Assembly: GCF_027111275.1 (NCBI RefSeq)
Contig: NZ_CP114286.1
Coordinates: 2,604,001-2,668,000 of the forward strand
Source: Flavobacterium luteolum
GTDB lineage: Bacteria > Bacteroidota > Bacteroidia > Flavobacteriales > Flavobacteriaceae
Direction of reading: 5' to 3'
DNA: 64,000 bases
Shown here: positions 4,390 to 54,612 of the stretch, in pieces
Layout of the letters: each line of letters starts with the position of its first letter
Numbering within the stretch: position 1 is the stretch's first letter
Position numbers and translations under genes: made by a program
Notes under the pieces: model-generated
What the model was told of the DNA's origin: nothing
The model's input: the letters and a program-made list of their open reading frames with translations, nothing else
Database searches by the model: none

Positions 4390-5103
4390 TTAATGAAAAG
4401 TGAAATTTATTAAAATCGCTCTAGATTTCATTGAATCAATGTTTCCTGTCCAAGGACTGTCTGGAGTATTGTCTCTAATAAGTTCGTCGGTTATGCCAAA
4501 CATTCCTCTAACAGAAGGAGAGAAGATAAAGTATTCAGTGAAAATATCAATTCCTAAACCTAATTCATAAGCCGCTGTCCATTGTTTTACTCTAAATTTC
4601 TGCTCAAAGTTATCGTCTTGAGATTTTGCGTTACTTGATAAATTTAAAGTTGTAGACATACCGCCAACTAAGTACGGGCGTATGTTTCCTGTACGTTTTG
4701 CAGAAAACTTCAATAATAACGGGAAGTGAATGTATGTACTATTCACTTCTCTTAAATAATCACTTTCGGTGTTTCCAATACCAGGAAAAAAAAGATCACG
4801 TTTAGTATAGTACAAACCTGGTTCAAAACGAAGATTGATATATTCCTGAAGTCTTAAATCGGCTACAACGCCCACATTAAACCCAGTAGTTTTTTTAACC
4901 TGAATATAGTTTTCTCCCGGAGGAGTTTTGTAATCAAATTTAAAGTCAAAACTATTAAAGCCTAAATAATAGCCAAAGTAAATACGCTGTTTCTGCCAGT
5001 TTTCAAGATTAATGATAGGATCTTTGCTAAACATATTTTTAGCAAATTGCGAATGTCCTTTTGTCGTTAAGACCAATAAAAATAAGATTACAATTTTTTT
5101 CAT
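4390..5103 (-). CDS. porT: PorT/SprT type IX secretion and gliding protein
   Basis: 237 aa, small outer-membrane beta-barrel with signal peptide (MKKIVILFLLVLTTKGHSQ). In the family it is needed for type IX secretion and, in gliding flavobacteria, for motility. The sequence shows alternating hydrophobic strands, an RFEPGLYY segment and an aromatic C-terminus (NFTFH). Its place one base after ubiE on the same strand is the known arrangement of porT/sprT in Flavobacteriia and supports the call. I use the Met at 5103, because an upstream in-frame start (5166) would lie inside ubiE and lose the signal peptide. Confidence 0.82.
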   Translation of the reverse strand: MKKIVILFLLVLTTKGHSQFAKNMFSKDPIINLENWQKQRIYFGYYLGFNSFDFKFDYKTPPGENYIQVKKTTGFNVGVVADLRLQEYINLRFEPGLYYTKRDLFFPGIGNTESDYLREVNSTYIHFPLLLKFSAKRTGNIRPYLVGGMSTTLNLSSNAKSQDDNFEQKFRVKQWTAAYELGLGIDIFTEYFIFSPSVRGMFGITDELIRDNTPDSPWTGNIDSMKSRAILINFTFH

Positions 5104-27365: not shown

Positions 27366-28616
27366 TTACAATCCAAATGCAGCTTTTACTTGGTCAACAA
27401 AATCAAGTTTTTCCCATGTAAACAACTCAACAGTAACTGTTTTTTCTTGTCCTCCTGGAGCAGAGAAAGTTTTAGTAACCGTTTCTGGTTTACGTCCCAT
27501 GTGTCCGTAAGCAGCAGTTTCGCTATAAATTGGGTTTCTTAATTTTAATCTTTGCTCAATAAAGTAAGGACGCATATCAAAGATAGCTTCTACTTTTTTA
27601 GCGATTTCACCGTTAGTTAAGTTTACTTTAGAAGTTCCGTAAGTTTCAATGAAGATTCCCATTGGCTCAGCAACTCCAATTGCGTAAGAAACTTGAACTA
27701 AGATTTCGTCAGCAACACCGGCAGCAACTAAGTTTTTAGCGATATGACGTGTGGCATAAGCAGCACTTCTGTCTACTTTACTTGGATCTTTTCCAGAGAA
27801 TGCACCACCACCGTGAGCACCTTTTCCACCGTAAGTATCCACGATAATTTTTCTTCCTGTTAAACCAGTATCTCCGTGAGGTCCTCCAATAACGAATTTT
27901 CCTGTTGGGTTAATATGGTAGTTGATTTTATCGTTGAATAAATGAGCGTGCTCTGGGTTTTTAGCGATAATTCTTGGAATCAAGATTTCGATAATATCTT
28001 TTTTGATTTTAGCCAACATTGCAGCTTCTTCATCAAAATCATCATGCTGAGTTGAGATAACAATCGCATCAATACGAGTTGGTTTGTTATCGTCGCTATA
28101 TTCTAAAGTAACTTGAGATTTAGCATCTGGACGTAAATACGTGATTGCTGCGTTCTCACGTCTTAAAATAGCTAATTCTTGCAATAATTTATGAGATAAA
28201 TCTAATGCCAATGGCATGTAGTTTTCAGTTTCGTTTGTAGCGTAACCAAACATCATTCCTTGGTCACCTGCACCTTGTTCTTCTGGCTTAGCTCTGTCAA
28301 CACCTTGATTAATGTCTGCAGACTGCTCGTGAATAGCTGATAAAATTCCACAAGAATTTGCTTCAAACATATATTCACTTTTAGTATATCCAATTTTACG
28401 GATTACCTCACGTGCAATTTGCTGAACATCAAGATAAGTATTCGATTTTACTTCACCTGCTAAAATAACCTGACCAGTTGTAACTAAAGTTTCGCAAGCT
28501 ACTTTTGAGTCAGCGTCAAATGCCAAAAAGTTGTCAATTAATGCATCCGAAATTTGATCTGCAACTTTGTCTGGATGCCCTTCACTAACAGATTCTGACG
28601 TAAATAAATAAGCCAT
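27366..28616 (-). CDS. metK: S-adenosylmethionine synthetase
   Basis: 416 aa, makes SAM from methionine and [24 protein letters not shown] binds [15 protein letters not shown] and [19 protein letters not shown] are the two PROSITE-type signatures. It runs from its own promoter through a SAM-II-like leader, so it is probably turned down by its product. Confidence 0.97.
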
Positions 28617-28683: not shown

Positions 28684-28792
28684 GGAGAGTTTCTGCTTTA
28701 GCATTTTTTACTGCTGAAATGAATCTTTCAGCATTCACAATGAAACCATTTCATTATGAAGAGGTTGCAATCAGTTCAAATTTTTCCTCTGT
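28684..28792 (-). promoter_or_regulatory. SAM-II-like riboswitch of metK, with an inserted two-hairpin domain
   Basis: Read on the minus strand: stem AGAGG/CCTCT (28786-28790 with 28760-28764) encloses ATTTGAACTGATTGCAA, close to the SAM-II loop (ATTTAACCGTATTGCAA type). Then comes ATGAAATGG and, after an insert, TGCTAAAGC, matching the ATAAATG...GCTAAA tail that completes the SAM-II pseudoknot. The insert has two hairpins (stems 28749-28755/28739-28745 and 28726-28732/28713-28719). It begins right at the predicted transcription start. The class call rests on remembered consensus. Confidence 0.6.
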
Positions 28793-28800
28793 TTCGGGTG

Positions 28801-28830: not shown

Positions 28831-28919
28831 TTAAAGTTCAACTTTTTTTATTTTTTCTAGCAGAAATTTAACAATAACATACTATTTTGATAGGGTAATA
28901 GAAAATATTTTGCTTTTTG

Positions 28920-28951
28920 TTTGGCTGATTAAAAAATAGTTTGCAACTTTG
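28920..28951 (+). promoter_or_regulatory. Promoter of leader peptide 1 / TonB receptor
   Basis: TTTG (28920-28923), 20-bp spacer, CAACTTTG (28944-28951; one mismatch to TAnnTTTG), followed by CCCCG as in the other promoters of this regulon. Confidence 0.5.
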
Positions 28952-28974
28952 CCCCGTTAAAACAAAAGAAACAA

Positions 28975-29043
28975 ATGAAATTTACAGTTTGCAATATGAT
29001 GTCTTGTAAGATGCCGGAGTTATCCGCAGAGACACTATTGTAG
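28975..29043 (+). CDS. Leader peptide 1 (22 aa, Met/Cys) of an attenuator
   Basis: Complete ORF ATG to TAG, too short for normal gene calling. Its core VCNMMSCKM holds four Met (with the start) and two Cys in 13 residues. Codons 18-19 (GCA GAG, 29026-29031) repeat the 3' arm of the downstream terminator, so that stretch can pair with CTCTGC at 29072-29077 and block the terminator. A ribosome stalled at the Met/Cys codons would leave it free; one reaching the stop would cover it. The same NMMxCKM core occurs in leader peptide 2. I infer ribosome-mediated attenuation of the TonB-receptor gene; a functional small peptide is the alternative. Confidence 0.65.
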   Translation: MKFTVCNMMSCKMPELSAETLL

Positions 29044-29068
29044 TTATTTTTCAATAAAATATAAATAG

Positions 29069-29098
29069 AACCTCTGCCGAATCGCAGAGGTTTTTTTT
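29069..29098 (+). terminator. Attenuator terminator 1
   Basis: AACCTCTGC/GCAGAGGTT with CGAATC loop and eight T, between the leader ORF and the receptor gene it would control. Confidence 0.85.
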
Positions 29099-29165
29099 AT
29101 GTCAAAAATAAATCTGTAAGATTTTTTTTAAGCCAAATACAATAATTAATCAGTAAAAAAAAGAA

Positions 29166-32012
29166 ATGAAGAAAAATGTACTAATCGTTTTAGGTCTTGT
29201 GACTTTTTCAGGACTTTATGCTCAAGACAATAAAAAAGAGCAGGATAGTTTAAAAAACAACGAACTGTCTGAAGTTACTATTATTGGATCAAGAAGTAAA
29301 AACAGAGTTAAAACAGATGTGCCTGTTCCAGTTGATGTTTTCAATGTGTCAGAAATAACAAAAGGAGCACCTCAAACCAGTGTAACTCAAATTTTAAATT
29401 ATGTTGCTCCTTCGTTTACGAGTAACCCAACATCTACGGCAGATGCAACAGACCACGTCGACCCTGCGCAATTAAGAGGATTAGGACCAGATCAGGTTCT
29501 GATTTTAGTAAACGGAAAAAGAAGACATACAAGTGCTTTGGTAAACATTAACGGATCGCCAGGAAGAGGATCTGTTGGAACAGACCTAAATGCCATTCCG
29601 TCTTTTGCCATAGAAAGAATAGAAGTTTTAAGAGATGGAGCTGCCGCACAATACGGTTCTGATGCGATTGCGGGAGTTATTAATATTGTTCTAAAGAAAA
29701 ACGCTAATTATCTAACAGGAGGAATTCAATATGGAGCAAATTTATCTTCGGGGTCAAATAATTTTGAAGGAGGAGCAGACGGACAAACTGCCCAAATCGA
29801 TTTAAATTACGGAACTTCATTGGGCAAACCTGGAAGTTTCTTAAATATCACAGGAACTGCGGTAACGAGACAAGCAACAAGCAGAGCAGGAATTAGAAGC
29901 AATGCTATTTTTAATGCTTACAATGCAGTAGAAAATAGAGCGGCACAAGATGGTGTAGAAATTAACTCTTTGTTTAGCAACATTAATACGACTACAAATT
30001 CAGCTCAGATTTTGTCTTCTTTAAAACAATATGCGCCGCAAGTAAGTTATTTTACAACAGCACAGCAAAACGCCATAGCATCAGCTTCAACAATTGCGCA
30101 GATGCAGACCGCTTTAAATTTTGATGTTACTAATAATGAATTGGCTTATAGAGGACAGCAGAGAAGTGATTATAATATGAGTGTTGGTCAGTCAGAATTG
30201 GCTTCTGGACAAGCATATTACAATGCAAAATATCCATTAACAGAAATAACTTCTTTGTATTCTTTTGGTGGAATATCGTACAGAAGCGGAAAATCGTATG
30301 CATTTAATAGATTGCCAAATGGTTCTGGAACTTTCACGCAAGTGTATCAAAACGGATTCTTGCCAGAAATTGAATCAAAAATTTTAGATGCTTCTGCAGC
30401 AGTTGGTGTAACTACAGAATTGTTCGGATTTGATACCGATTTGAGTACCACTTTAGGAACAAACTCTTTTAATTATGATGTAAATAATTCCATCAATGCA
30501 ACTTTAGGAACAAATTCTCCTTTTAGTTTTGATGCAGGAAAAGTTTCGTTTTTACAAAGCACAACTAATTTGGATTTTAGTAAAAAACTAGATGTTCTTT
30601 CTGGACTGAATGTTGCTTTTGGAGGTGAATTCAGATATGAAAACTACGAAATTAAAGCAGGAGAAGAAGCTTCTTACGGATTGTATGATGTAAACGGAAA
30701 TTTAGTTTCAGGAATTCTGCCAAGCAATTCACCATTGATTGTAACTGACTTCTTTGGAAACAAACGTGGAGCAGGAGCTCAAGGATTTTCAGGATTTCAG
30801 CCTTCGGATGCTAAAGAAAAAAACAGAAAAAGTGGCGCCGCTTACATAGATTTAGAATTGAATGCCACTGAGAAATGGCTCATAAATGGAGCTGCACGTT
30901 ATGAAAACTATTCAGATTTTGGAAATACGGTTACGTTTAAACTGGCTTCTCTTTTAAAATTAAATGATAATATCAATTGGAGAATTTCTGGACAGACTGG
31001 TTTTAGAGCGCCTTCTTTACAGCAAAGATATTTTGAGTCAAGTTCTACTCAATTTATAAACGGTTCTCCATATCAAGTTGGTTATTTTACAAACGATTCG
31101 CAAGCAGCAAAAAGCATTGGAATTGAAAGTTTAAAACCAGAAAAATCAAAAAGCATCAGTACAGGATTTACATTTAAAATTCCTGAAGCTAACATAACCA
31201 TTGCTACTGATGCTTATTTTACAAGAATCAATGACAGAATTGTACTGTCTGGACAATATTCTAGACCAACAGATGCGCAGATTGCAGCGGCAACTTCGCC
31301 AGAACAGGCAGAGGCGTTGACTTTATTTCAGCAGGCATTTGATTTGAAAGGTGTAGAAAGAGCTTCATTCTGGACAAACGGAATCGATTCTGAAACAAAA
31401 GGTATTGATTTGGTAATTTCTCAGAAATATGATGTAATTCAGGATTTCACAATTAGAAACGATTTTGCATTAAGTTTCAACGAAACCAAAAGAGTAGGAG
31501 ATCTGCATATTCCGCAGTCTATCGTTAATGCTGGAGGAGAACCTTACATCTATTCTTTCTTTCCAGAATCAAGCCGAGTATATTTGGAAGAAGCGATTCC
31601 AAAATTGAAAGCCAATTTCATGACTACTTTCAATATTAAAAAACTGGATATTTATTTAAGAAATAGCTATTTCGGAAAAGTTACAGACCCAGGAGCAACA
31701 GATGTGAATTTAGACGGATTTTCTTCTGTGTATGAACACCCGGAATACAGCGCAAAATTGGTTACCGATTTATCTTTAGGATATCAGATCAACGAGCATT
31801 TGAGAGCAACAATTGGGGTTAATAATATAGGAGATGTTTATCCAGACCGAAATAATCCTGCAACTCCAGCCTTTACAAACACAACGCCAACTTTGTCGCC
31901 TGCACCAAGTACAGATTTGACAAATGCGAATCAGTTTGCGTATTCAAGAGCAGTTTCTCAATTCGGATTAAACGGAAGATTTGGTTTTGCCCGTTTGAGC
32001 TTTAAATTTTAA
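29166..32012 (+). CDS. TonB-dependent receptor, probably for a sulfur or methionine-related nutrient
   Basis: 948 aa. Signal peptide (TFSGLYAQ), TonB-box-like LSEVTIIGSR, full plug domain (QILNYVAPSF, QLRGLGPDQVLILVNGKRRH, GTDLNAIPSFAIERIEVLRDGA... AGVINIVLKK) and a 22-strand-type barrel ending FGFARLSFKF. No CarboxypepD_reg domain, unlike most Bacteroidota receptors. The substrate is not evident from the sequence. The Met/Cys leader-peptide attenuator upstream and the O-acetylhomoserine sulfhydrylase unit downstream suggest uptake of a sulfur source under Met/Cys shortage. Confidence 0.85.
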   Translation: MKKNVLIVLGLVTFSGLYAQDNKKEQDSLKNNELSEVTIIGSRSKNRVKTDVPVPVDVFNVSEITKGAPQTSVTQILNYVAPSFTSNPTSTADATDHVDPAQLRGLGPDQVLILVNGKRRHTSALVNINGSPGRGSVGTDLNAIPSFAIERIEVLRDGAAAQYGSDAIAGVINIVLKKNANYLTGGIQYGANLSSGSNNFEGGADGQTAQIDLNYGTSLGKPGSFLNITGTAVTRQATSRAGIRSNAIFNAYNAVENRAAQDGVEINSLFSNINTTTNSAQILSSLKQYAPQVSYFTTAQQNAIASASTIAQMQTALNFDVTNNELAYRGQQRSDYNMSVGQSELASGQAYYNAKYPLTEITSLYSFGGISYRSGKSYAFNRLPNGSGTFTQVYQNGFLPEIESKILDASAAVGVTTELFGFDTDLSTTLGTNSFNYDVNNSINATLGTNSPFSFDAGKVSFLQSTTNLDFSKKLDVLSGLNVAFGGEFRYENYEIKAGEEASYGLYDVNGNLVSGILPSNSPLIVTDFFGNKRGAGAQGFSGFQPSDAKEKNRKSGAAYIDLELNATEKWLINGAARYENYSDFGNTVTFKLASLLKLNDNINWRISGQTGFRAPSLQQRYFESSSTQFINGSPYQVGYFTNDSQAAKSIGIESLKPEKSKSISTGFTFKIPEANITIATDAYFTRINDRIVLSGQYSRPTDAQIAAATSPEQAEALTLFQQAFDLKGVERASFWTNGIDSETKGIDLVISQKYDVIQDFTIRNDFALSFNETKRVGDLHIPQSIVNAGGEPYIYSFFPESSRVYLEEAIPKLKANFMTTFNIKKLDIYLRNSYFGKVTDPGATDVNLDGFSSVYEHPEYSAKLVTDLSLGYQINEHLRATIGVNNIGDVYPDRNNPATPAFTNTTPTLSPAPSTDLTNANQFAYSRAVSQFGLNGRFGFARLSFKF

Positions 32013-32018
32013 TTAAAT

Positions 32019-32061
32019 AAATTTCTTTCAAGTCTTTATTTGAAAGGCTTGAAAGAAATTT
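32019..32061. repeat. Perfect 14-bp inverted repeat after the TonB receptor
   Basis: AAATTTCTTTCAAG (32019-32032) and CTTGAAAGAAATTT (32048-32061). An A run follows rather than a T run, so on the plus strand it is a stem without a U tract. It may protect the mRNA 3' end. Confidence 0.7.
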
Positions 32062-32093
32062 CAAAAAAAAATAGTACAAAATTTCAATTTTAA

Positions 32094-32125
32094 TTTGGTC
32101 GTTAAAAAAATACTTATTACATTTA
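32094..32125 (+). promoter_or_regulatory. Promoter of leader peptide 2 unit
   Basis: TTTG (32094-32097), 20-bp spacer, TACATTTA (32118-32125; one mismatch). Confidence 0.45.
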
Positions 32126-32133
32126 CTCTATCG

Positions 32134-32163
32134 AATTAGTCGAATTTAAAAATTAGTCGAATT
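32134..32163 (+). repeat. 13-bp direct repeat near the predicted start of transcription
   Basis: AATTAGTCGAATT at 32134-32146 and 32151-32163, 17-bp period, just after the -7 box. Possible operator or RNA element of the sulfhydrylase unit. Confidence 0.6.
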
Positions 32164-32179
32164 CAAATTTTAAATAAAA

Positions 32180-32260
32180 ATGAAAACAATAGCAAAAGGA
32201 AATATGATGTGTTGTAAAATGATGCAAATGTGCATCCAAATTTGCTGTTGCCAAAAGTGA
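32180..32260 (+). CDS. Leader peptide 2 (26 aa, six Met and six Cys) of an attenuator
   Basis: ATG to TGA ORF with the run GNMMCCKMMQMCIQICCC: twelve of 26 residues are Met or Cys, far beyond chance. The last codons (GCCAAAAG, 32250-32257) can pair with CTTTTGGT in the 5' arm and loop of the following terminator (32296-32303) as an antiterminator. The core NMMCCKM is shared with leader peptide 1. The unit behind it encodes a 58-aa protein and O-acetylhomoserine sulfhydrylase, so sensing of Met-tRNA and Cys-tRNA charging fits the pathway. This is the clearest of the four leaders. Confidence 0.75.
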   Translation: MKTIAKGNMMCCKMMQMCIQICCCQK

Positions 32261-32290
32261 AAGAGACAATCTTTGTTATAGTTAAACTAT

Positions 32291-32325
32291 AAGCCCTTTT
32301 GGTCGCCATCCGAAAGGGCTTTTTT
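32291..32325 (+). terminator. Attenuator terminator 2
   Basis: AAGCCCTTT/AAAGGGCTT with a 13-nt loop and T tail, 31 bp after the leader stop. Confidence 0.85.
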
Positions 32326-32351
32326 ATTTCCAACATTTTAAATTTTAAATC

Positions 32352-32528
32352 ATGAATACACTAGATATAAATACAATCGCATTTCAATACTTATTAAGAA
32401 ATAATAATTCGGAAGAGACATCAACTGAAACGCTAAAGTATGATCCTGCACAGCAGACAAAAACACAAAAATCATTACTATTTCATTTATATGATCTTGA
32501 AGAAGAAGCCGAAGATATTTTAGCTTAA
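32352..32528 (+). CDS. 58-aa protein of unknown function, first gene behind attenuator 2
   Basis: Starts MNTLDINTIAFQYLLRNN and ends FHLYDLEEEAEDILA. Acidic, with no Cys and no Met after the start, which would suit synthesis when Met and Cys are short. No signal peptide or membrane segment. It lies 69 bp before the sulfhydrylase gene with no promoter or terminator between. I do not recognise a family. The 72-aa gene at 35860 holds the matching position behind attenuators 3 and 4. Confidence 0.6.
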   Translation: MNTLDINTIAFQYLLRNNNSEETSTETLKYDPAQQTKTQKSLLFHLYDLEEEAEDILA

Positions 32529-32596
32529 ATCAATTTTAAAAATCAATATCAATTACAATATAAAACGTATTAACAATACCTAAAAACTTAAAAATC

Positions 32597-33901
32597 ATGA
32601 GCACACAAAAATTTGCAACAAACGCATTACACGCAGGACACGACGTAGCTAAAAACGCAGGAACTAGAGCCGTGCCTATTTACCAGACATCATCATATGT
32701 GTTTAATAACGCCGATCATGCAGCCAATTTATTTGGTCTTGCCGAAGCCGGATTTATTTATACCAGATTAAATAATCCAACAAATGACATTTTAGAACAG
32801 CGTCTGGCAGCACTCGAAGGCGGGATTGGAGCTGTTGTTACGGCTTCTGGAGCATCGGCGATTTCTACAACTTTGTTGACTTTGCTAAAAGCGGGAGATC
32901 ATATCGTAGCTTCAAACAGTTTATACGGAGGGACTTATAATCTTCTAAAAGTTACCTTGCCAAGATTAGGAATTACTACCACATTTGTAGATCCTTCAAA
33001 ACCTGAAAACTTTACAAAAGCAGCAAAAGAAAATACAAGAGCTTTCTTTGTTGAGTCTCTAGGAAATCCAAAATTAGATGTATTAGACTTAAAAGCAATT
33101 TCGGCAGAAGCCAAAGCATTCAAAGTACCATTTATAGTAGACAATACAGTTGCGACACCTTATTTATTAAACCCAATTAAATATGGTGCCGATATTGTAA
33201 TTCATTCCTTAACAAAATATATCGCAGGAAACGGAACTTCATTAGGAGGCGTTATCATTGATGCTGGAAACTTTGATTGGGCAAACGGAAAATTCCCAGA
33301 ATTTACCGAGCCATCTGCAGGATACCACGGATTAGTATATCATGAAGCCTTAGGAAATGCAGCTTTTATTGCAAAAGCTCGAATTGAAGGACTGCGTGAT
33401 TTTGGTTCTGCTTTGAGTCCATTTAATGCTTTTCAGATTATTCAAGGATTAGAAACGCTTCCAATCCGAATCAAGAAACATAGTGAAAATGCTTTGGCGC
33501 TAGCCGAATGGTTAGAGAAACAAGATGAGGTAGTTTGGGTAAATTATCCAGGTTTAAAATCTAACAAATATCATGATCTGGCTAAAGAATATTTGCCAGA
33601 AGGCCAAAGCGGCATTATCACTTTCGGATTAAAAGGTGGTTTTGATGCGGCCAAAAAAGTGGTAGATGATACAAAACTATTCTCTCTGCTGGCTAATATT
33701 GGTGACACAAAATCACTGATTATTCACCCTGCAAGTACGACACACCAGCAATTAACAGAATCAGAGCAAATAGAAACTGGAGTTTCTAAAGATTTGATTC
33801 GTCTGTCTGTCGGAATTGAAGATATTGAAGATTTAATTGCTGATTTGCAAACTGTTTTTGAGAGCGTTTCGCTTTCTCAATTCAGCATCAATAAAAATTA
33901 G
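32597..33901 (+). CDS. metY: O-acetylhomoserine sulfhydrylase
   Basis: 434 aa PLP enzyme of the Cys/Met metabolism family. Makes homocysteine from O-acetylhomoserine and sulfide. PLP lysine about 207 in SLTKYIAGNGTSLGG; substrate arm YTRLNNPT; the length and the 240-260 insertion (EPSAGYHGLVYHEALG) fit the O-acetylhomoserine type rather than cystathionine gamma-synthase. It is in a transcription unit behind a Met/Cys leader attenuator. Its partner MetX is 2.5 kb downstream. Confidence 0.92.
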   Translation: MSTQKFATNALHAGHDVAKNAGTRAVPIYQTSSYVFNNADHAANLFGLAEAGFIYTRLNNPTNDILEQRLAALEGGIGAVVTASGASAISTTLLTLLKAGDHIVASNSLYGGTYNLLKVTLPRLGITTTFVDPSKPENFTKAAKENTRAFFVESLGNPKLDVLDLKAISAEAKAFKVPFIVDNTVATPYLLNPIKYGADIVIHSLTKYIAGNGTSLGGVIIDAGNFDWANGKFPEFTEPSAGYHGLVYHEALGNAAFIAKARIEGLRDFGSALSPFNAFQIIQGLETLPIRIKKHSENALALAEWLEKQDEVVWVNYPGLKSNKYHDLAKEYLPEGQSGIITFGLKGGFDAAKKVVDDTKLFSLLANIGDTKSLIIHPASTTHQQLTESEQIETGVSKDLIRLSVGIEDIEDLIADLQTVFESVSLSQFSINKN

Positions 33902-33929
33902 GTTTTTTTGTTTTTTGTTTGAAAAATTG

Positions 33930-33964
33930 CCTTTAGCGAGTGGTTTTGCTAAAGGTGATTTTTT
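33930..33964 (+). terminator. Terminator after metY
   Basis: CCTTTAGC/GCTAAAGG, 8-bp stem, 10-nt loop, T run. Confidence 0.75.
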
Positions 33965-34035
33965 ATGAAAAACACCATTATAAAATTTAAATCATATAAG
34001 GAATATAAGTGCATTTTAGAAGAAGCGTAATGTAA

Positions 34036-34055
34036 AGACGCACCACAGTGCATCT
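34036..34055. repeat. REP-like palindrome
   Basis: AGACGCAC/GTGCATCT with one mismatch around CACA. From memory, similar GACGCACxxCAGTGCGTC strings are frequent in Bacteroidota spacers. Confidence 0.45.
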
Positions 34056-34131
34056 AGTTTTGTGATGCAAAAAATATTAAATGAACTTACATCACTTATA
34101 TGGTTTTAAAAAATTAAAAATGTTAGAAATT

Positions 34132-35220
34132 ATGTCAAAGCTTAAAATAAACATTATCCTTTTCGGAATTGGTAATATCGGAAGCACTTTGATTAATCAA
34201 ATTGTAGAAAGTCAGGAGTTTTTTCTGGAAAGTAAAAATGTCGATTTTCATTTTCCAATTATAACCAATTCTACGGTTGCTTTTTTTGAGAAAGAAGGCG
34301 TTGGATATGCTTGGGAAACCAATTTTAGACAATTGGCTGTTCCTTTTAAAGTAGAAGATATTGTCGAATTTGCACAAGAAAATGAATTCGAAAACTTGAT
34401 TGCTGTAGACGCAACAGCCAGCGATGAATTGGTGAAGCATTACAATACGTTAATCAAAAATGGATTTAATATTGTAGCGGTAAACAAAAAAGCCAATACG
34501 CTCCCGATTGACTTATATAAAGAGCTACGAGCAGATCTTAAAAAGTATGACAAGGAGTTTTTTTATGAAACATCTGTTGAGGCTGGAATTCCTGTTTTGC
34601 AAACCTTAAGAGATTTGTATTACTCGGGAGAAAAAATCACTAAGATTCGAGGGGTTTTCTCTGATAATTTGAGTTATGTCTTTAATCGATTTTCATCGGA
34701 AGATGTTTCGTTTTCGTCTGTTTTAAAAGATGCAAGCCTTTTAGGTTTAATGAAATCAAACTTCAAAGAAGATTTATCAGGAAATGATACAGCAAGAAAG
34801 CTTCTGATATTGGCTAGAGAAATTGGAAAAGATTTTGAGCTTTCAGATATTAAAATTAAGCCGTTTATAACCGAAGAACATTTGGAAAAAAATGGTGTGT
34901 TAAATAAAGACGCAGTCGATAAATCTTTTAAGATTGCCAAAATTACTCAGGCAGAAAATCATGTGCTTCGATATGTAGGAGAATTTGATGTTGAAAAAGG
35001 CACTTTGGAAGCCAAATTAATTTCTGAACCAGTCGATTCTCCAATCGGACAATTAAAAGGTTCTGATGCCATTTTTGAAATTTATACCAAATCGTACGCC
35101 GATATTCCAATCGTAATTCAGAGTGCTCCGCCATGTAAACAGGCAATTTCAAGAGGAATTATAACGGATATTCTGAAAATTGCAGAACGAATTAGGATTA
35201 AAGAAGCCGTTTGGCTATAA
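34132..35220 (+). CDS. Divergent homoserine-dehydrogenase-like protein, likely altered or lost activity
   Basis: 362 aa, no aspartokinase domain. Clearly homologous to the C-terminal half of ThrA at 37438: FGIGNIGSTLINQIVES versus FGHGLVGGTLINQILES, and both share the GND..RKLLILARE segment. But the substrate and catalytic signature is changed: TEPDPREDL of ThrA reads MKSNFKEDL here, removing the conserved Glu and Asp; FSGTLSYLFN reads FSDNLSYVFN; TNVGAGLP reads TSVEAGIP; and GAGAGSAVTARG reads SAPPCKQAISRG. The reading frame is intact over full length, so it is not a pseudogene. It may bind a pathway ligand as a sensor, or use another substrate. Start chosen at MSKLKINI; Mets at 34081 and 34120 are alternatives. 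Confidence 0.7.
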   Translation: MSKLKINIILFGIGNIGSTLINQIVESQEFFLESKNVDFHFPIITNSTVAFFEKEGVGYAWETNFRQLAVPFKVEDIVEFAQENEFENLIAVDATASDELVKHYNTLIKNGFNIVAVNKKANTLPIDLYKELRADLKKYDKEFFYETSVEAGIPVLQTLRDLYYSGEKITKIRGVFSDNLSYVFNRFSSEDVSFSSVLKDASLLGLMKSNFKEDLSGNDTARKLLILAREIGKDFELSDIKIKPFITEEHLEKNGVLNKDAVDKSFKIAKITQAENHVLRYVGEFDVEKGTLEAKLISEPVDSPIGQLKGSDAIFEIYTKSYADIPIVIQSAPPCKQAISRGIITDILKIAERIRIKEAVWL

Positions 35221-35351
35221 ATTTTTAGAAAAAAAGAAAAAAAGTTCTTTGATAAATTGATTTGTCAAATGGAATTGTTAAGGAAAATATGTTGTTTTTG
35301 TAAGTTTTTTACCTTTATTATTTCGTTTTCGTTTTTGTAAGATGTTTTTTG

Positions 35352-35381
35352 TCGTTAAAAAACTGATTTTTAACGATTTTT
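35352..35381 (+). terminator. Terminator after the homoserine-dehydrogenase-like gene
   Basis: TCGTTAAAAA/TTTTTAACGA, 10-bp stem, followed by TTTTTG. It is 130 bp downstream of the stop. Confidence 0.65.
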
Positions 35382-35403
35382 GTAATTAAATTCTTGAATT
35401 TAA

Positions 35404-35435
35404 TTTGTGTAATAAAAAAAATATTTGCATATTTG
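35404..35435 (+). promoter_or_regulatory. Promoter of the double-attenuator unit
   Basis: TTTG (35404-35407), 20-bp spacer, CATATTTG (35428-35435; one mismatch). None of this quality is seen between attenuators 3 and 4. Confidence 0.45.
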
Positions 35436-35462
35436 TTATACCCAAAAACTACTAGAAATCAA

Positions 35463-35534
35463 ATGAACTTAAAAGTCAACAAAATGTTTTGTGCCATTTC
35501 GGTTAAGACCGAGGCTGGGGTGTCTATTGCTTAA
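35463..35534 (+). CDS. Leader peptide 3 (23 aa) of an attenuator
   Basis: ATG to TAA ORF containing NKMFCAIS and ending KTEAGVSIA. Two Met and one Cys, so its composition is weaker than leaders 1 and 2. Codons 17-18 (GAG GCT, 35511-35516) can pair with AGCCTC (35569-35574) in the 5' arm of the terminator that follows, the same geometry as in leader 1. NKMF is shared with leader peptide 4. Confidence 0.55.
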   Translation: MNLKVNKMFCAISVKTEAGVSIA

Positions 35535-35565
35535 AAAAATTGTAAGAATACAATAATAATATAGT

Positions 35566-35598
35566 AAAAGCCTCCCAAGAAATTTTGGGAGGCTTTTT
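35566..35598 (+). terminator. Attenuator terminator 3
   Basis: AAAAGCCTCCCAA/TTGGGAGGCTTTT, 13-bp stem with a 6-nt loop and T run. No gene end explains it, since the nearest upstream gene already has its own terminator. Confidence 0.88.
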
Positions 35599-35646
35599 AA
35601 TTTACAACAAATGCAGAATTTAAATAAAATACAATATAAATCACAG

Positions 35647-35712
35647 ATGAATAAATCCTTACAGATGAACAAGATGTTTACTGTCGCGCTTATTTGCGCA
35701 TACGTCTGTTGA
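35647..35712 (+). CDS. Leader peptide 4 (21 aa) of an attenuator
   Basis: ATG to TGA ORF with MNKMF in the middle and ICAYVC at the end: three Met and two Cys. The segment GATACTAAAAG (35711-35721), overlapping the stop codon, pairs over 11 positions (one G-U) with CTTTTGGTATC (35748-35758), which is the 5' arm and loop of the next terminator. Its place right after terminator 3 without a new promoter makes it the second of two attenuators in series. Confidence 0.6.
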   Translation: MNKSLQMNKMFTVALICAYVC

Positions 35713-35742
35713 TACTAAAAGTATAAATGAGTTTAAAAACTT

Positions 35743-35782
35743 AAACCCTTTTGGTATCTAGAAAATCCAAAAGGGTTTTTTT
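35743..35782 (+). terminator. Attenuator terminator 4
   Basis: AAACCCTTTTGG/CCAAAAGGGTTT, 12-bp stem with a 12-nt loop and T run; 30 bp after leader 4. Confidence 0.88.
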
Positions 35783-35859
35783 ATTCCCGAAAGGGGCTTA
35801 ACACAAACATAAAAGAGAAATAAAGATTATAAAACGCAACTTAACTAAAACTTAATATC

Positions 35860-36078
35860 ATGAGCACATTGAACTACTTAGCAGAAAAAATTTCAGATTT
35901 GAAAAACAGAAGGACTAGAAAAAACAATCCGCCACCACCAATAAACGAATTGGCTCACCCAAGATTCGGAATAACAGAGGCTGAAATCACAGAGGGAGGT
36001 AAAGCAGCTGAGAAAAAAGCACCTAACTCTTTATTGTTTTTGATGTATTCAAAAGAAAATGAAACGCTTTTTATCTAA
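35860..36078 (+). CDS. 72-aa protein of unknown function behind attenuators 3 and 4
   Basis: MSTLNYLAEKISDLKNRRTR, a PPPP stretch at about 26-29, then a mixed C-terminal half ending NETLFI. Only one internal Met and no Cys, as in the 58-aa protein behind attenuator 2. Soluble, no signal. The next gene (metX) has its own promoter and riboswitch, so this may be the only product of the double-attenuated transcript, unless read-through occurs. No family recognised. Confidence 0.6.
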   Translation: MSTLNYLAEKISDLKNRRTRKNNPPPPINELAHPRFGITEAEITEGGKAAEKKAPNSLLFLMYSKENETLFI

Positions 36079-36208
36079 ACGTAAAAGCATCATAAACTAG
36101 GGTAAAACCTGCTTAATTTTACTGGGCATTTTTGTTCGGTAAATTTTTGCGTATAATAGTTTTTGCTAAAATAAGTCTCAGAAATTTAACAAACACTTTT
36201 AGATAAAA

Positions 36209-36240: not shown

Positions 36241-36269
36241 CACCGTTAAGTTCAAAAACGTATTGAAAT

Positions 36270-36372
36270 GTTATAAAGAAAGGACGAGGGATTAGACCCG
36301 ATGAAGCCTTAGCAACCCTTCGGTAAAACGAAGAAGGTGCTACATTCTACCACGCCAAACGTGGAAAGATAA
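36270..36372 (+). promoter_or_regulatory. SAM-I riboswitch (S box) of metX-thrA
   Basis: Closing stem GTTAT/ATAAC, then the S-box core GAGGGATTAGACCCGATGAA, GCCTTAGCAACC, the CTTCGGTAAAACGAAG hairpin, GGTGCTACATTCTACC, and a final CACG...CGTG hairpin with AAAGATAA. The spacer to the start has only a weak CTAG...CTAG stem and no good terminator, so control of translation is more likely than of termination. Confidence 0.93.
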
Positions 36373-36446
36373 CAACAAGATTTTTTCTAGTTAAACCTAG
36401 TTTTTCTTTTTAATATTTCCATATACAAATCAATAATACAACAGAT

Positions 36447-37436
36447 TTGAAATTGGAAAATATACCAAATCCCATTATAATTCAAGATTTCATCACAGAA
36501 AGTGGTGCAACTTATCATTCTATACCATTAAGTTTTACGCTGGCAGGACAACCTTTGCACAGCGCACCGATTGTTTTAGTAAACCATGCTTTAACTGGAA
36601 ATTCGCAAGTTACTGGCGAAAATGGCTGGTGGAATGACTTGATTGGTGAAGGTAAAACCATCGATACTGCTGTTTATACCATTTTGTCTTTTGATGTTCC
36701 AGGAAACGGAAACGATTCTTTCTTAATCGATAACTATTTAGATTTTACAGCAAGAGACATTGCAAGAATTTTTATCGAAGGCGTAAAAACTTTACATATC
36801 GAAAAGCTTTTTGCGGTTATTGGAGGTTCTGTTGGTGGCGGAATTGCTTGGGAAATCTTAGCATTAGCGCCAAATATCACAGAAAACCTTATTCCGATTG
36901 CGAGCGACTGGAAATCGACAGATTGGCTTATCGCAAATTGCTTTTTACAAGAGCAAATTCTCAATAATTCGTCGAAACCAATTGAAGACGCCAGAATACA
37001 TGCCATGCTTTGTTACCGATCGCCAGAATCATTCAAAGAAAAATTTCAGCGCACAATCAATCAAGATCTTTTGATTTTTAATATAGAAAGCTGGTTGGCA
37101 CATCATGGAAAAAAATTGCAGAAAAGATTCCAATTGTCTTCTTATAAATTGATGAATCAGTTGCTTAAAACAATTGATATTACTAGAAATAGTGAAAGTT
37201 TTGAAAACTTATTGGCTAAAACAAAAGCTTCAATTCATATCATCGGGATCAATTCAGATTTGTTTTTTACAGCAAAAGAAAATGTTGAAACCTATGAGGA
37301 ATTGAAGAAGTTTAAAGACAATGTTTTCTATAGCGAAATTGATTCGGTTCACGGACATGACGCTTTTTTAATCGAGTACAAACAATTAGATCATTTACTT
37401 GCCGACATTTTTAAGGCAGAAACAATAAAGAAATAA
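36447..37436 (+). CDS. metX: Homoserine O-acetyltransferase (MetX, alpha/beta-hydrolase fold), TTG start
   Basis: 329 aa. Acetylates homoserine with acetyl-CoA. Nucleophile Ser in VIGGSVGGGIAWE, catalytic Asp in INSDLFF and His in VHGHDAFLIEY near the end; LVNHALTGNSQV is the oxyanion region. The frame is open only from a stop at 36411, and no ATG lies before the conserved region, so TTG at 36447 (TTGAAATTGGAA, protein begins KLENIPN) is the best start. One base separates its stop from thrA. It is under a SAM-I riboswitch. Confidence 0.9.
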   Translation: MKLENIPNPIIIQDFITESGATYHSIPLSFTLAGQPLHSAPIVLVNHALTGNSQVTGENGWWNDLIGEGKTIDTAVYTILSFDVPGNGNDSFLIDNYLDFTARDIARIFIEGVKTLHIEKLFAVIGGSVGGGIAWEILALAPNITENLIPIASDWKSTDWLIANCFLQEQILNNSSKPIEDARIHAMLCYRSPESFKEKFQRTINQDLLIFNIESWLAHHGKKLQKRFQLSSYKLMNQLLKTIDITRNSESFENLLAKTKASIHIIGINSDLFFTAKENVETYEELKKFKDNVFYSEIDSVHGHDAFLIEYKQLDHLLADIFKAETIKK

Positions 37437-43581: not shown

Positions 43582-43992
43582 ATGCTTTCAAAAAAGACAA
43601 AATACGGAATTAAAGCTCTTACATATTTAGCCAGAAGAGAAAATAATGAACCTGTGCAAATTGCCGAAATTGCTAAAAGCGAGCATATTTCGATAAAATT
43701 TCTGGAAAGTATTTTGTTGTTGCTTAGAAATTCAGGTTTTCTTGGTGCAAAAAAAGGAAAAGGTGGGGGGTATTATCTGATAAAAGATCCCAAAGATATT
43801 AGTATGGCTAAAGTATACAGAATTCTTGAGGGACCCATAGCATTATTGCCTTGCGCGAGTCATAATTTTTATGAAAGATGTGATGATTGCGATGATGAAT
43901 CAACTTGTGCAGCACGACGTTTAATGACCGAAGTTCGTGATAATACACTTAAGATATTAGAAAGTAATTCTCTGGCAGATATTGCATTTTAA
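43582..43992 (+). CDS. Rrf2-family transcriptional regulator with four cysteines
   Basis: 136 aa. Winged helix (KYGIKALTYLARR, IAEIAKSEHISIKFLESILLLLRNSGF, KGKGGGYYL). Cysteines at 91, 100, 103 and 109 could hold an iron-sulfur cluster or zinc, as in IscR-like members, whereas CymR-type cysteine regulators do not use this pattern. The gene lies 1.1 kb before the sulfate-reduction operon, whose promoter carries a perfect palindrome, so it is the best candidate regulator in the window. Its own upstream region holds TACTAATTTAGTA (43434-43446). Confidence 0.88.
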   Translation: MLSKKTKYGIKALTYLARRENNEPVQIAEIAKSEHISIKFLESILLLLRNSGFLGAKKGKGGGYYLIKDPKDISMAKVYRILEGPIALLPCASHNFYERCDDCDDESTCAARRLMTEVRDNTLKILESNSLADIAF

Positions 43993-46085: not shown

Positions 46086-46796
46086 ATGAGTGCGATTATT
46101 GTACAAGAATTATTAGAGAAAACTAAAGATTTTTCGCTTGACGAAACCTTAGTTTTTTTAGCAAAAGAGTTTCCAGGAAAAGTAATTTTCTCAACATCTT
46201 TTGGTCAGGAAGATCAGGTAATTACCGATTTTATTGCAAAAAGTGACACAGATATTACGGTGTTTACTTTAGATACAGGAAGATTGTTTCAGGAAACGTA
46301 TGATGTTTTTCACAAAACATTAAAAAAATATAAAAGACCAATCGAAGTGTATTTTCCTGAAGCAACAGCGGTAGAAAATCTTCTGAAAACAAAAGGACCA
46401 AACAGCTTTTACGATTCGGTTGAAAATAGAAAAGAATGCTGTTTTATTCGAAAAGTAGTTCCGTTACGAAAAGCTTTGGCAGGAAATTCGGTTTGGATAA
46501 CAGGTTTAAGAGCTGAACAATCGGAGAACAGACATGATTTAAGTTTGTTTGAATACGACGGAAATTTCGAAATCATCAAATTCAATCCGTTACTAAAATG
46601 GACTTTAGAAGAAGTTGAAACGTATCTTTCGGAAAATAATGTTCCTCAAAATGTTTTACACAAACAAGGTTTCGTAAGTATTGGATGCGCGCCGTGTACG
46701 AGAGCGATTTTTCCAGGTGAAGATATCAGAGCCGGAAGATGGTGGTGGGAATCAAGCCATAAAGAGTGTGGGCTTCACAGTGCTAAGAAAGAGTAG
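46086..46796 (+). CDS. cysH: APS reductase (four-cysteine, iron-sulfur type)
   Basis: 236 aa. CC at 118-119 and CAPC at 201-204 are the [4Fe-4S] ligands that define adenylylsulfate reductases, and KECGLH holds the catalytic Cys at 228. It reduces APS directly to sulfite, in line with the absence of an APS kinase gene. FSTSFGQEDQV is the PP-loop region. Confidence 0.93.
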   Translation: MSAIIVQELLEKTKDFSLDETLVFLAKEFPGKVIFSTSFGQEDQVITDFIAKSDTDITVFTLDTGRLFQETYDVFHKTLKKYKRPIEVYFPEATAVENLLKTKGPNSFYDSVENRKECCFIRKVVPLRKALAGNSVWITGLRAEQSENRHDLSLFEYDGNFEIIKFNPLLKWTLEEVETYLSENNVPQNVLHKQGFVSIGCAPCTRAIFPGEDIRAGRWWWESSHKECGLHSAKKE

Positions 46797-54291: not shown

Positions 54292-54314
54292 CACTGTTCT
54301 TAAAATTATTGTCA

Positions 54315-54426
54315 GTTATCACGAAAGGCGGAGGGATAGACCCGATGAAACCTTAGCAACCCTTTATCATAAAGAAGGTGCTAAATTCTACTTTTTACTA
54401 ATTTTCCAGTATTAAAGATAGATAAC
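54315..54426 (+). promoter_or_regulatory. SAM-I riboswitch (S box) of the metH homocysteine-domain gene
   Basis: Closing stem GTTATC/GATAAC; core GGAGGGATAGACCCGATGAA, ACCTTAGCAACC, CTTTATCATAAAG hairpin, GGTGCTAAATTCTAC. The start codon is 322 bp further on, with a repeat-like hairpin between. Confidence 0.92.
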
Positions 54427-54504
54427 ACAAATACATACTCGTATTTCTCAAAACTTTTCCAGACAACATACAATATTTACTGAAACAGATTCTGTATCAG
54501 GAGC

Positions 54505-54612
54505 GAATCATTGGGGCATTTTTGCAGTCAATAGTTCCCGCTTTTCGTTGCAATCATTTTGTTTTTTAAAGAAAAAAGCAAAATGATTTCCACTTCAATC
54601 GGGGCTAATGAG
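54505..54612 (+). other. Hairpin element in the leader between SAM-I riboswitch and metH
   Basis: GGAGCGAATCATTGGGGCAT ... CAATCGGGGCTAATGAGCC frame a 16-bp stem built of AATCATTTTG/CAAAATGATT (54552-54561 with 54579-54588) plus TTTTTT/AAAAAA around a 4-nt AAAG loop. It resembles, from memory, a recurrent Flavobacterium hairpin (CGTTGCAATC...GATTTCCACTTC). Confidence 0.55.

Follow-up and report, generated by a model that had tools for sequence, protein, structure and literature searches.

Introduction

Methionine genes are a textbook case of control by S-adenosylmethionine (SAM) or by repressors, and the S-box (SAM-I) and SAM-II riboswitches sense SAM through an aptamer. Classical ribosome-mediated attenuators are the trp, his, phe, thr, and leu leaders of Proteobacteria. 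Polycysteine short open reading frames (ORFs) of mycobacteria are also reportedly responsive to cysteine, according to work by Canestrari in 2020. In Actinobacteria, cysteine leader peptides are found before cys operons, and for methionine operons the portion of the study considered here gives no RNA structure conserved on their upstream side (PMC1262725). Within the genus Flavobacterium, the main text of another study strongly points to attenuation by leader peptides ahead of amino-acid operons of F. psychrophilum, with the pheA and hisG 5′ elements among those conserved in other genera (PMC9723704).

Here, a family of four leader elements, L1–L4, is described in Flavobacterium luteolum, in a stretch of 64,000 nucleotides (contig NZ_CP114286.1, positions 2,604,001 to 2,668,000; hereafter the window, to which all coordinates refer). 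The window harbors an island of sulfur genes, metK, metY, metX, and cysH, together with the four leader-type short ORFs. Because ORFs, Met/Cys codons, compensated base pairs, linkage to Met/Cys genes, and complementarity with the S-box are all found, the family very probably represents ribosome-mediated, trp-type transcription attenuators sensing charged tRNA-Met/Cys. Confidence in this reading is greatest for L1 and L2, smaller for L4, and smallest for L3.

In each element, a short ORF with Met/Cys codons lies upstream of the RNA arms. When Met and Cys are ample, the ribosome would reach the stop codon and cover the 5′ arm of the antiterminator (segment 2); segments 3 and 4 would then form the terminator, and transcription would end before metY (L1 and L2) or metX (L3 and L4). 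When Met or Cys is scarce, the ribosome would stall at the run of Met/Cys codons before it reaches segment 2, and the free segment 2 would pair with segment 3, so that no terminator is formed and the sulfur amino-acid genes are transcribed. In type-A elements, a hairpin of segments 1 and 2 could protect the terminator when the ribosome is absent. One type would act after the other, A and then B, both ahead of metY and ahead of metX, where a SAM-I riboswitch comes next. Translation, stalling, the switch to read-through, and the choice of Met or Cys as the signal of each leader are predictions from the sequence.

The four leader elements

All parts of the four elements lie on the plus strand, and their ORFs, terminators, and competing pairs are directly visible. 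L1 (type A) encodes the leader peptide MKFTVCNMMSCKMPELSAETLL at 28975..29043, with Met/Cys at codons 6, 8, 9, 11, and 13. It is preceded by a promoter-like site at 28921..28951 and followed by an intrinsic terminator, AACCTCTGC..GCAGAGGTT with a U tract, at 29069..29098; the type-A alignment described below places the segment 1:2 hairpin CGGA..TCCG at 29015..29026 and the antiterminator 5′ arm GCAGAG, for which five pairs were scored, within the ORF at 29026..29031. L2 (type B) has a promoter-like site at 32095..32125 and an ORF for MKTIAKGNMMCCKMMQMCIQICCCQK at 32180..32260, in which 11 of the 25 residues after the start are Met or Cys. Its antiterminator 5′ arm, CCAAAAG, is at the ORF end (32251..32257, from the type-B alignment), the antiterminator on its own folds with -11.0 kcal/mol, and the intrinsic terminator, AGCCCTTTTGG..CCGAAAGGGCT with a U tract, is at 32292..32325. 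The L3 ORF (type A-like; MNLKVNKMFCAISVKTEAGVSIA, 35463..35534) has Met/Cys at codons 8 and 10 only, and is accompanied by the antiterminator 5′ arm GAGGCT at 35511..35516 (duplex -10.9 kcal/mol) and the intrinsic terminator AAAGCCTCCCAAG..TTTGGGAGGCTTT at 35567..35598 (fold -18.2 kcal/mol). The L4 ORF (type B; MNKSLQMNKMFTVALICAYVC, 35647..35712) has an alternative upstream ATG at 35611; its antiterminator 5′ arm GATACTAAAAG overlaps the stop codon (35711..35721; duplex -14.3 and antiterminator fold -13.8 kcal/mol), and its intrinsic terminator, AACCCTTTTGG..CCAAAAGGGTT with a U tract, is at 35744..35782.

The gap between ORF and terminator is 24–33 nt in all four elements. As the original prediction held, and as computed duplexes bear out for all four, a segment inside or just 3′ of the ORF is complementary to the 5′ arm of the terminator. 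Segment 2 ends at the stop codon, overlaps it, or is within 18 nt of it. More than 12 nt separate segment 2 from the end of the preceding Met/Cys codons in L1 and L3, and likewise from codons 9–18 of L2 and codons 7, 10, and 17 of L4; because they sit far enough upstream, a ribosome stalled on them would leave segment 2 free. In 100 dinucleotide shuffles of 28900–36100, no short ORF with at least three Met/Cys preceded a terminator, compared with three in the real sequence; L3, with two Met/Cys, is below that count. Among the 30 short ORFs of the window that precede terminators on both strands, L2 (11) and L1 (5) rank at the top in Met/Cys fraction. The predicted larger gene after each unit is found in part: L3 is followed by L4, and L2 and L4 are followed by ORFs of 58 and 72 amino acids before metY and S-box–metX, respectively.

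Conservation upstream of metY

Orthologous islands were first picked by motif: 40 regions were fetched, 18 without a met-island gene by tblastn were dropped, and in the remaining 22 the L1 and L2 ORFs are present in 22/22, L4 in 20/22, and L3 in 15/22. A degenerate DNA pattern for the peptide core NMM[SC]CKM matched 3 of 299 family genomes with at most one mismatch (own genome included) and 47 of 150 genus genomes with at most two. This pattern was rejected as a sampler, since many of the genus matches are chance ones, and sampling anchored on the gene was used instead. MetY, chosen independently of the motif, was found in 50 of 81 genus genomes, and 36 further genus loci were taken. Of the 32 scanned, 31 have an ORF with at least three Met/Cys plus a terminator within 700 nt of metY. 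A Mann-Whitney test would be biased, the leaders having been chosen for at least three Met/Cys, and a composition-blind count was used in its place: among ORFs before terminators upstream of metY, 53 of 57 have at least three Met/Cys; when all loci are read on the other strand, 9 of 38 do. As the loci are phylogenetically non-independent, Fisher values are not readable as probabilities.

The Met/Cys triplets are also specific to the reading frame. In-frame ATG/TGY triplets number 9.8 per ORF in metY type B (45 ORFs; the other two frames have 2.6 and 0.5), 5.2 in metY type A (48 ORFs; 2.1 and 0.8), and 4.8 in metX type B (29 ORFs; 1.4 and 1.5). Meanwhile the peptide itself is variable, with its Met/Cys content kept, as in the metY leaders MKTIVNKMMMCCMMRMCIPICYCQKQRI, MNVIAKNMMMTCMMMRTMCCIGICYYQKRKT, MIFNTNTMMMAMMMMNMMMFTTPYCLKSTS, and MILKVNQMMMPMNMNMMMFISRHGRKSAS. 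An L2-type leader, MKTIARKNMMCCSMMQMCIQSCCCQK, is present in F. johnsoniae strain CI04 (locus L289), and a leader is present at the F. psychrophilum metY locus (L281). In loci L102–L107, which form one clade of the metY tree, each leader holds at most one Cys, those of L105 and L107 none, and Met is retained; for this reason Met is taken to be the more constant signal at metY than Cys.

The pN/pS values are 0.72 for L1, 0.80 for L2, 0.88 for L3, and 0.48 for L4, with 0.29 in codons 2–15 of L4, which suggests ordinary protein conservation for L4 only. General purifying selection on the L1–L3 peptides was considered and is not seen in pN/pS; what is kept is the Met/Cys codons. The conserved peptide and codon-level selection expected by the original prediction are therefore found in part, for the Met/Cys codons and for L4, and not for the peptide as such. 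The lack of conservation of ORF or stems that was to speak against the prediction was not found, and L1 and L2 are kept across Flavobacterium.

Competing folds

The predicted covariation of both stems is borne out by compensated pairs in terminators and antiterminators of both types. The type-A alignment comprises 43 of 52 metY-side rows (the CCTCC/CTTCC subtype and identical sequences were left out). Its terminator is 99.7% paired, with three pairs changed on both sides, and the five-pair antiterminator core between ORF columns 38–42 and the terminator 5′ arm is paired in 43/43 sequences with two pairs compensated. In L102–L104, which have the most divergent terminator arm, the ORF arm follows via compensated and G-U pairs. 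The 1:2 hairpin is paired in 97.7% of cells, with one compensated pair. The type-B alignment comprises 38 of 45 listed sequences (L083, two L089 rows, L090, L095, L096, and L109 were left out as too unlike); its terminator is 98.9% paired with five compensated pairs, and its antiterminator 93.7% paired with two, compared with 29–66% in slid controls.

Furthermore, the arms of one sequence fit each other better than arms swapped between species with different arms: own duplexes have a mean of -11.5 versus -8.6 kcal/mol in type A (61/70 beat the median swap) and of -11.5 versus -9.5 kcal/mol in type B (52/73). Own type-A duplexes are matched by at most 5% of shuffles in 44/70 cases; the duplex shuffles, 200 per window leader for L3 and L4, were mononucleotide and not dinucleotide. 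In the window, the share of mononucleotide shuffles giving a duplex as strong is 3.5% for L1, 7% for L2, 14% for L3, and 0.5% for L4. Overall, these data argue for a mutually exclusive antiterminator whose 5′ arm would lie under a ribosome at the stop codon, strongly in type A, moderately in type B, and weakly in L3.

A slot shared with SAM riboswitches

In the named set, the best 80 of 560 named relatives of MetY, 57 loci have a leader before metY, 22 an S-box by motif, none both, and one (L316) a SAM-II riboswitch. A further set of 63 loci, which may share genomes with the named set, consists of 32 genus loci out of 36, 11 order loci out of 15, and, from 29 class matches outside the order, 20 that were fetched; here 35 loci have a leader only, 19 an S-box only, none both, and nine neither. 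The absence of loci with both is based on Rfam for five of the 57 named leader loci and for the 35 of the 63-locus set. No S-box was found before metY in the 32 scanned genus loci. Conversely, in six order-sampled loci without leader (L110–L114 and L124), an S-box ends 123–237 nt before metY.

Leaders are found in all 48 loci of the Flavobacterium part of the named set (47 titled Flavobacterium and one [Flexibacter]), and also at three loci of Christiangramia, two of Salegentibacter, and one of Mesonia. S-boxes precede metY in Aquimarina, Flagellimonas, Tamlana, Algibacter, and others. Outside the order, two loci of one family, L228 and L232, lack an S-box and encode MIAFKSININMMMCCCMPINRPEQLYHIA and MLFQKNMFCCCMMHKCVGASSC, each accompanied by a terminator; of the 20 class loci outside the order, 13 have an S-box. 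The S-box motif recognised three of seven Rfam-called elements and missed four class-level ones. Rfam scans of 13 of the 80 named loci confirmed seven S-boxes, gave none before metY in five leader loci, and turned L316 from neither into SAM-II. In this locus, from an unclassified member of Flavobacteriaceae, the SAM-II element is at 4893–4952, 48 nt before metY, and is a third kind of element in the slot.

As far as the sequences go, leader and S-box/SAM-II are thus exclusive at metY. A gene tree of 98 MetY proteins was built by a quick method with a single model; on it, 5–6 changes of the leader label are required, at least three of them forced by strongly supported branches. metY may also have been transferred together with its leader.

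Promoters and tandem order

TTG-N17-23-TANNTTTG, which we take to be the Bacteroidota promoter consensus, was allowed at most one mismatch for a promoter-like site. The sites of L1, L2, and L3 are seen with one mismatch in 23/23, 16/23, and 16/16 sequences, compared with 9–16% of mononucleotide shuffles (16% for L1). By the same criterion, L4 has a promoter-like site in 0/21 sequences; because of this, L4 probably sits on the L3 transcript. The four units stand at their predicted places, with ORFs, terminators, and complementary arms, and yet they are not four equal, independent units, as L4 has no promoter-like site of its own. In five loci that were checked and have L4 without L3, a promoter-like site is found 144–148 nt before L4. 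The gene for a TonB-dependent receptor between L1 and L2 is present in 13 of the 22 islands and absent at that place in nine, where the L1 and L2 ORF starts are 154–253 nt apart. Of the seven sequences with a weaker L2 promoter site, six are such loci without the receptor gene, with L1 and L2 in tandem. A single transcript thus probably carries the units as attenuators in tandem.

The terminator arm CCCTTTTGG is common to L2 and L4. The covariance model R2, trained only on metY-side type B, finds L4 in the window with an E-value of 2.8e-5, about 40-fold better than the next matches, and matches X-side elements in four other genomes (E 0.001–0.01). The type-A model R1 matches an L3-type element of genome G302 (E 7.4e-6); on the L3 of the window itself it gives E 0.11, no better than chance matches. 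At loci L083, L089, and L090, elements judged L3-like and L4-like lie directly before metY. From terminator and fold, the kinship of L2 and L4 is clear and that of L1 and L3 probable, and the earlier grouping of L1 with L2 and L3 with L4 by peptide core proved superficial. The four elements are accordingly read as one tandem A+B module that is used twice, at metY and at metX.

Leaders before other sulfur genes

Models trained on metY leaders match other leaders in genomes with or without this MetY. Such leaders precede metX-thrA in L185, L186, L189, and L191. A leader MKKEFKNMMAFMMMWRNSAEDVML with six Met and no Cys precedes a gene that resembles those for cystathionine synthase/lyase (it matches Pfam PF01053 and stays below every NCBIfam cut-off), and in the same genome a leader MSKRIINKMSNCCCAKCCKHSNSLLPYMKT with five Cys and two Met precedes cysH-cysD-cysN. 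In a survey of this cysH, 47 genomes were found and 22 loci examined: a leader is present at 5/6 loci with at least 61% identity to that divergent cysH and at 0/16 below, the split at 61% having been set after inspection of the data. Weak R1/R2 matches (E about 0.01–0.05, two of them in the own genome) were partly inspected and are not counted as members. The pooled Cys share of Met plus Cys is 0.52 in nine cysH leaders, 0.43 in metY type B, 0.36 in metY type A, and 0.18 in five leaders from other genomes that precede the synthase-like gene or metX. The cys genes, too, may swap control systems, an Rrf2-like ORF versus leaders, according to cysH class.

Leader-like Cys/Met ORFs with terminators are also seen before OsmC-like genes in L193 (1621–1701), L198, and L185, the latter two on the reverse strand; the OsmC assignment is by Pfam for L185 and L193. 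In L193, a gene for an oligopeptide-type ABC transporter ATPase lies downstream of the OsmC-like gene, and it is possible that leaders of this type are linked to Met/Cys or peptide uptake.

Taking these results together, we incline slightly towards a joint reading. A family of Met/Cys-charging attenuators, often in tandem, would have been swapped with SAM riboswitches at least three times at metY in Flavobacteriales; the metX mRNA would carry leaders and a SAM riboswitch in series, integrating charged tRNA-Met/Cys with SAM; and the sulfur regulon (metY, metX, the cystathionine synthase/lyase-like gene, and some cysH operons) would use one duplicated module, with its Met:Cys ratio partly tuned to the gene.

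Weighing the explanations

Several observations weigh against attenuation as the common explanation. Tandem A+B within 1500 nt upstream of metY is found in just 17 of 36 genus loci; 18 have a single leader and one (L088) none. The pN/pS of L1–L3 is 0.7–0.9, and a shifted frame can be as low or lower (0.71 for L1 +2, 0.39 for L2 +2). L3 is poor in Met/Cys, and in its family, metX type A (18 ORFs), ATG/TGY triplets number 2.1 per ORF in frame and 1.3 and 1.6 out of frame; the claim that L3 senses Met/Cys accordingly finds little or no support, and L3 may be a weak or decayed member. A ribosome stalled at the terminal Cys codons 22–24 of L2 would mask segment 2. Among the folds, the second helix of the type-A antiterminator, CTAT:ATAG, is paired in just 69.8% of cells, and double changes are more numerous in one of the slid controls (15 versus 11 cells). 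Covariation in the type-B antiterminator is modest, its percentage of pairing alone being reached by at most 5 of 500 column shuffles, and only 35/73 own type-B duplexes are matched by at most 5% of mononucleotide shuffles. The strongest duplex of L2 in the window (-12.7 kcal/mol, 7% of shuffles) is a pairing other than CCAAAAG; in L041, which has the same arm, 33% of shuffles equal the duplex made by CCAAAAG. The cysH of the window (57% identity) has no leader, like 16/16 loci of its identity class. Finally, the Cys share does not follow the target gene: it is highest, 0.57, in metX-side type A, and 0.43 in metX-side type B, and because of these high shares any tuning of Met:Cys to the gene is only partial.

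The leaders could instead be arrest peptides, in which a nascent chain binding Met, SAM, or another sulfur metabolite in the tunnel stalls and flips the same folds. Short peptide, stalling, and competing stems would then look alike, sub-motifs do recur (SAE..IV, PQR..IA, YCQK), and the low pN/pS of L4, over the whole ORF as well as in codons 2–15, would fit. This explanation is nonetheless unlikely, as the positions and order of Met/Cys vary freely at metY (MKTIAKGNMMCCKMMQMCIQICCCQK, MNVIAKNMMSCMMMHMMMCCIGICYYQKRKT, MIFNTNTMMMAMMMMNMMMFTTPYCLKSTS) and the pN/pS of 0.72–0.88 for L1–L3 speaks against it.

Somewhat less likely still is that the elements report initiation or the general state of translation, such as the supply of formyl-Met, instead of charging at internal codons. 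The multiplied internal Met codons, the likewise multiplied Cys codons, and the location of the leaders, ahead of sulfur genes and where SAM riboswitches otherwise stand, all disagree with it, even though Met limitation lowers initiation too and no obvious Shine-Dalgarno sequence is seen before the ORFs by eye, without a dedicated test.

CC and MM runs could bind Cu(I) or Zn, and the pN/pS of L4 could likewise be that of a functional peptide. That the ORFs encode functional micropeptides, rich in Met/Cys and binding metal or active in redox binding, while the terminators are ordinary and the pairings incidental, is nevertheless improbable in view of the compensated antiterminator pairs, the own duplexes stronger than swapped ones, the exclusivity with the S-box at one gene, and the Cys-free leaders of L105 and L107. 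Least probable by a further step is that the terminators merely end upstream genes and the ORFs are due to chance: L3 does lie 3′ of the homoserine dehydrogenase gene on the same strand, but L1 has a divergent gene, the metK-like one, on its upstream side, both L1 and L2 persist where the TonB receptor gene is absent, shuffles yield no such ORFs, and conservation in 31/32 loci contradicts chance.

The sulfur island around the leaders

The leaders lie within a single island of sulfur genes. Upstream of L1, a metK-like gene (27366–28616, minus strand; named from its ORF translation) is divergent and has a SAM-II riboswitch at 28688..28795 on the minus strand (Rfam RF01726, 48.6 bits). The TonB-dependent receptor gene between L1 and L2 is at 29166..32012 on the plus strand (Pfam PF00593 and PF07715; no NCBIfam cut-off was reached). 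metY, for an O-acetylhomoserine/O-acetylserine sulfhydrylase (32597..33901, plus strand; TIGR01326, 649 bits versus a cut-off of 495.1), is the presumed target of L1 and L2. It is followed on the plus strand by the gene for a homoserine dehydrogenase domain protein (34120..35220; PF00742 and PF03447), the S-box riboswitch of metX, 3′ of L3/L4 on the same strand (36268..36375; Rfam RF00162, 75.5 bits), and metX (36447..37436; TIGR01392 at 180.6 bits, under the cut-off of 500; Pfam alpha/beta hydrolase), the presumed target of L3, L4, and the S-box. Further members are an aspartokinase/homoserine dehydrogenase-like ORF, an OsmC-like protein, a second sulfhydrylase-like enzyme, cysH (46086–46796; by sequence match), further cys-like ORFs, and a metH-like gene preceded by a second S-box. 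The names metK, aspartokinase, Rrf2, cysD/N, and metH are readings of translations. An Rrf2-like ORF (43582–43992) precedes the leader-less cysH cluster of the window.

An Rfam scan of the whole window at the gathering threshold gave matches solely at 28688–28795, 36268–36375, and 54313–54428, and Flavo-1 at 54530–54610; no S-box or SAM-II match was found for L1–L4 and no T-box within the window. The Flavo-1 RNA (RF01705, minus strand) adjoins the S-box of the metH-like gene, and Flavo-1 is next to an S-box in locus L079 too.

Two small orphan ORFs lie on the plus strand between leaders and targets. sORF58, between L2 and metY (32352..32528), has zero Met/Cys after the start, matches no Pfam/NCBIfam family, ends in QKSLLFHLYDLEEE, and is found in 19 of 74 loci. 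sORF72, preceding S-box–metX (35860..36078), is found in 37 of 74 loci (window counted), with a variable N-terminus and the near-invariant C-terminus NSLLFLMYSKENETLFI. Their relatives among the matches listed are hypothetical proteins, the named ones nearly all from Flavobacterium. Perhaps, they are regulators linked to metX/metY or arrest peptides.

Comparison with known systems

The same promoter-proximal slot is occupied by a SAM-reading riboswitch or, apparently, by a ribosome reading tRNA charging, so that nature itself provides a test of when a cell monitors the end product and when it monitors aminoacylation. The 57 leader loci are natural variants differing in Met/Cys codons, stems, and tandem order, and they make an attenuator family of Bacteroidota open to testing in a genus that can be handled genetically.

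Like classical attenuators, these elements have a short leader ORF with pathway codons, an intrinsic terminator, a competing antiterminator, and, in type A, a candidate 1:2 hairpin. Unlike them, the flavobacterial leaders would read Met and Cys, are found in Bacteroidota, often two in tandem, and form a module that precedes several sulfur genes and occupies the place taken by SAM riboswitches in relatives. The S-box (RF00162) and SAM-II (RF01726) share with them the target gene and the position before metY, but have no leader ORF. The Cys leaders of Actinobacteria, as described in the portion of the study considered, are alike in their short ORFs with Cys runs before cys operons, and differ in having no conserved terminator and Cys only (PMC1262725). 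The attenuation suggested for F. psychrophilum belongs to the same genus and mechanism class and lies upstream of amino-acid biosynthesis operons; the main text of that study, to which the comparison was confined, does not contain the word methionine (PMC9723704), although some overlap with the Met/Cys leaders here may exist. In the literature searched, outside which most subscription papers fall, no Met-leader attenuator was found. The original prediction that the family is undescribed in Bacteroidota therefore holds in that literature for the Met/Cys version and not for attenuation as such, already inferred in F. psychrophilum in the part of the study covered (PMC9723704). New here is the proposed Met/Cys leader attenuation, added to leader attenuation in Flavobacterium and Cys leaders in Actinobacteria, which were known already.

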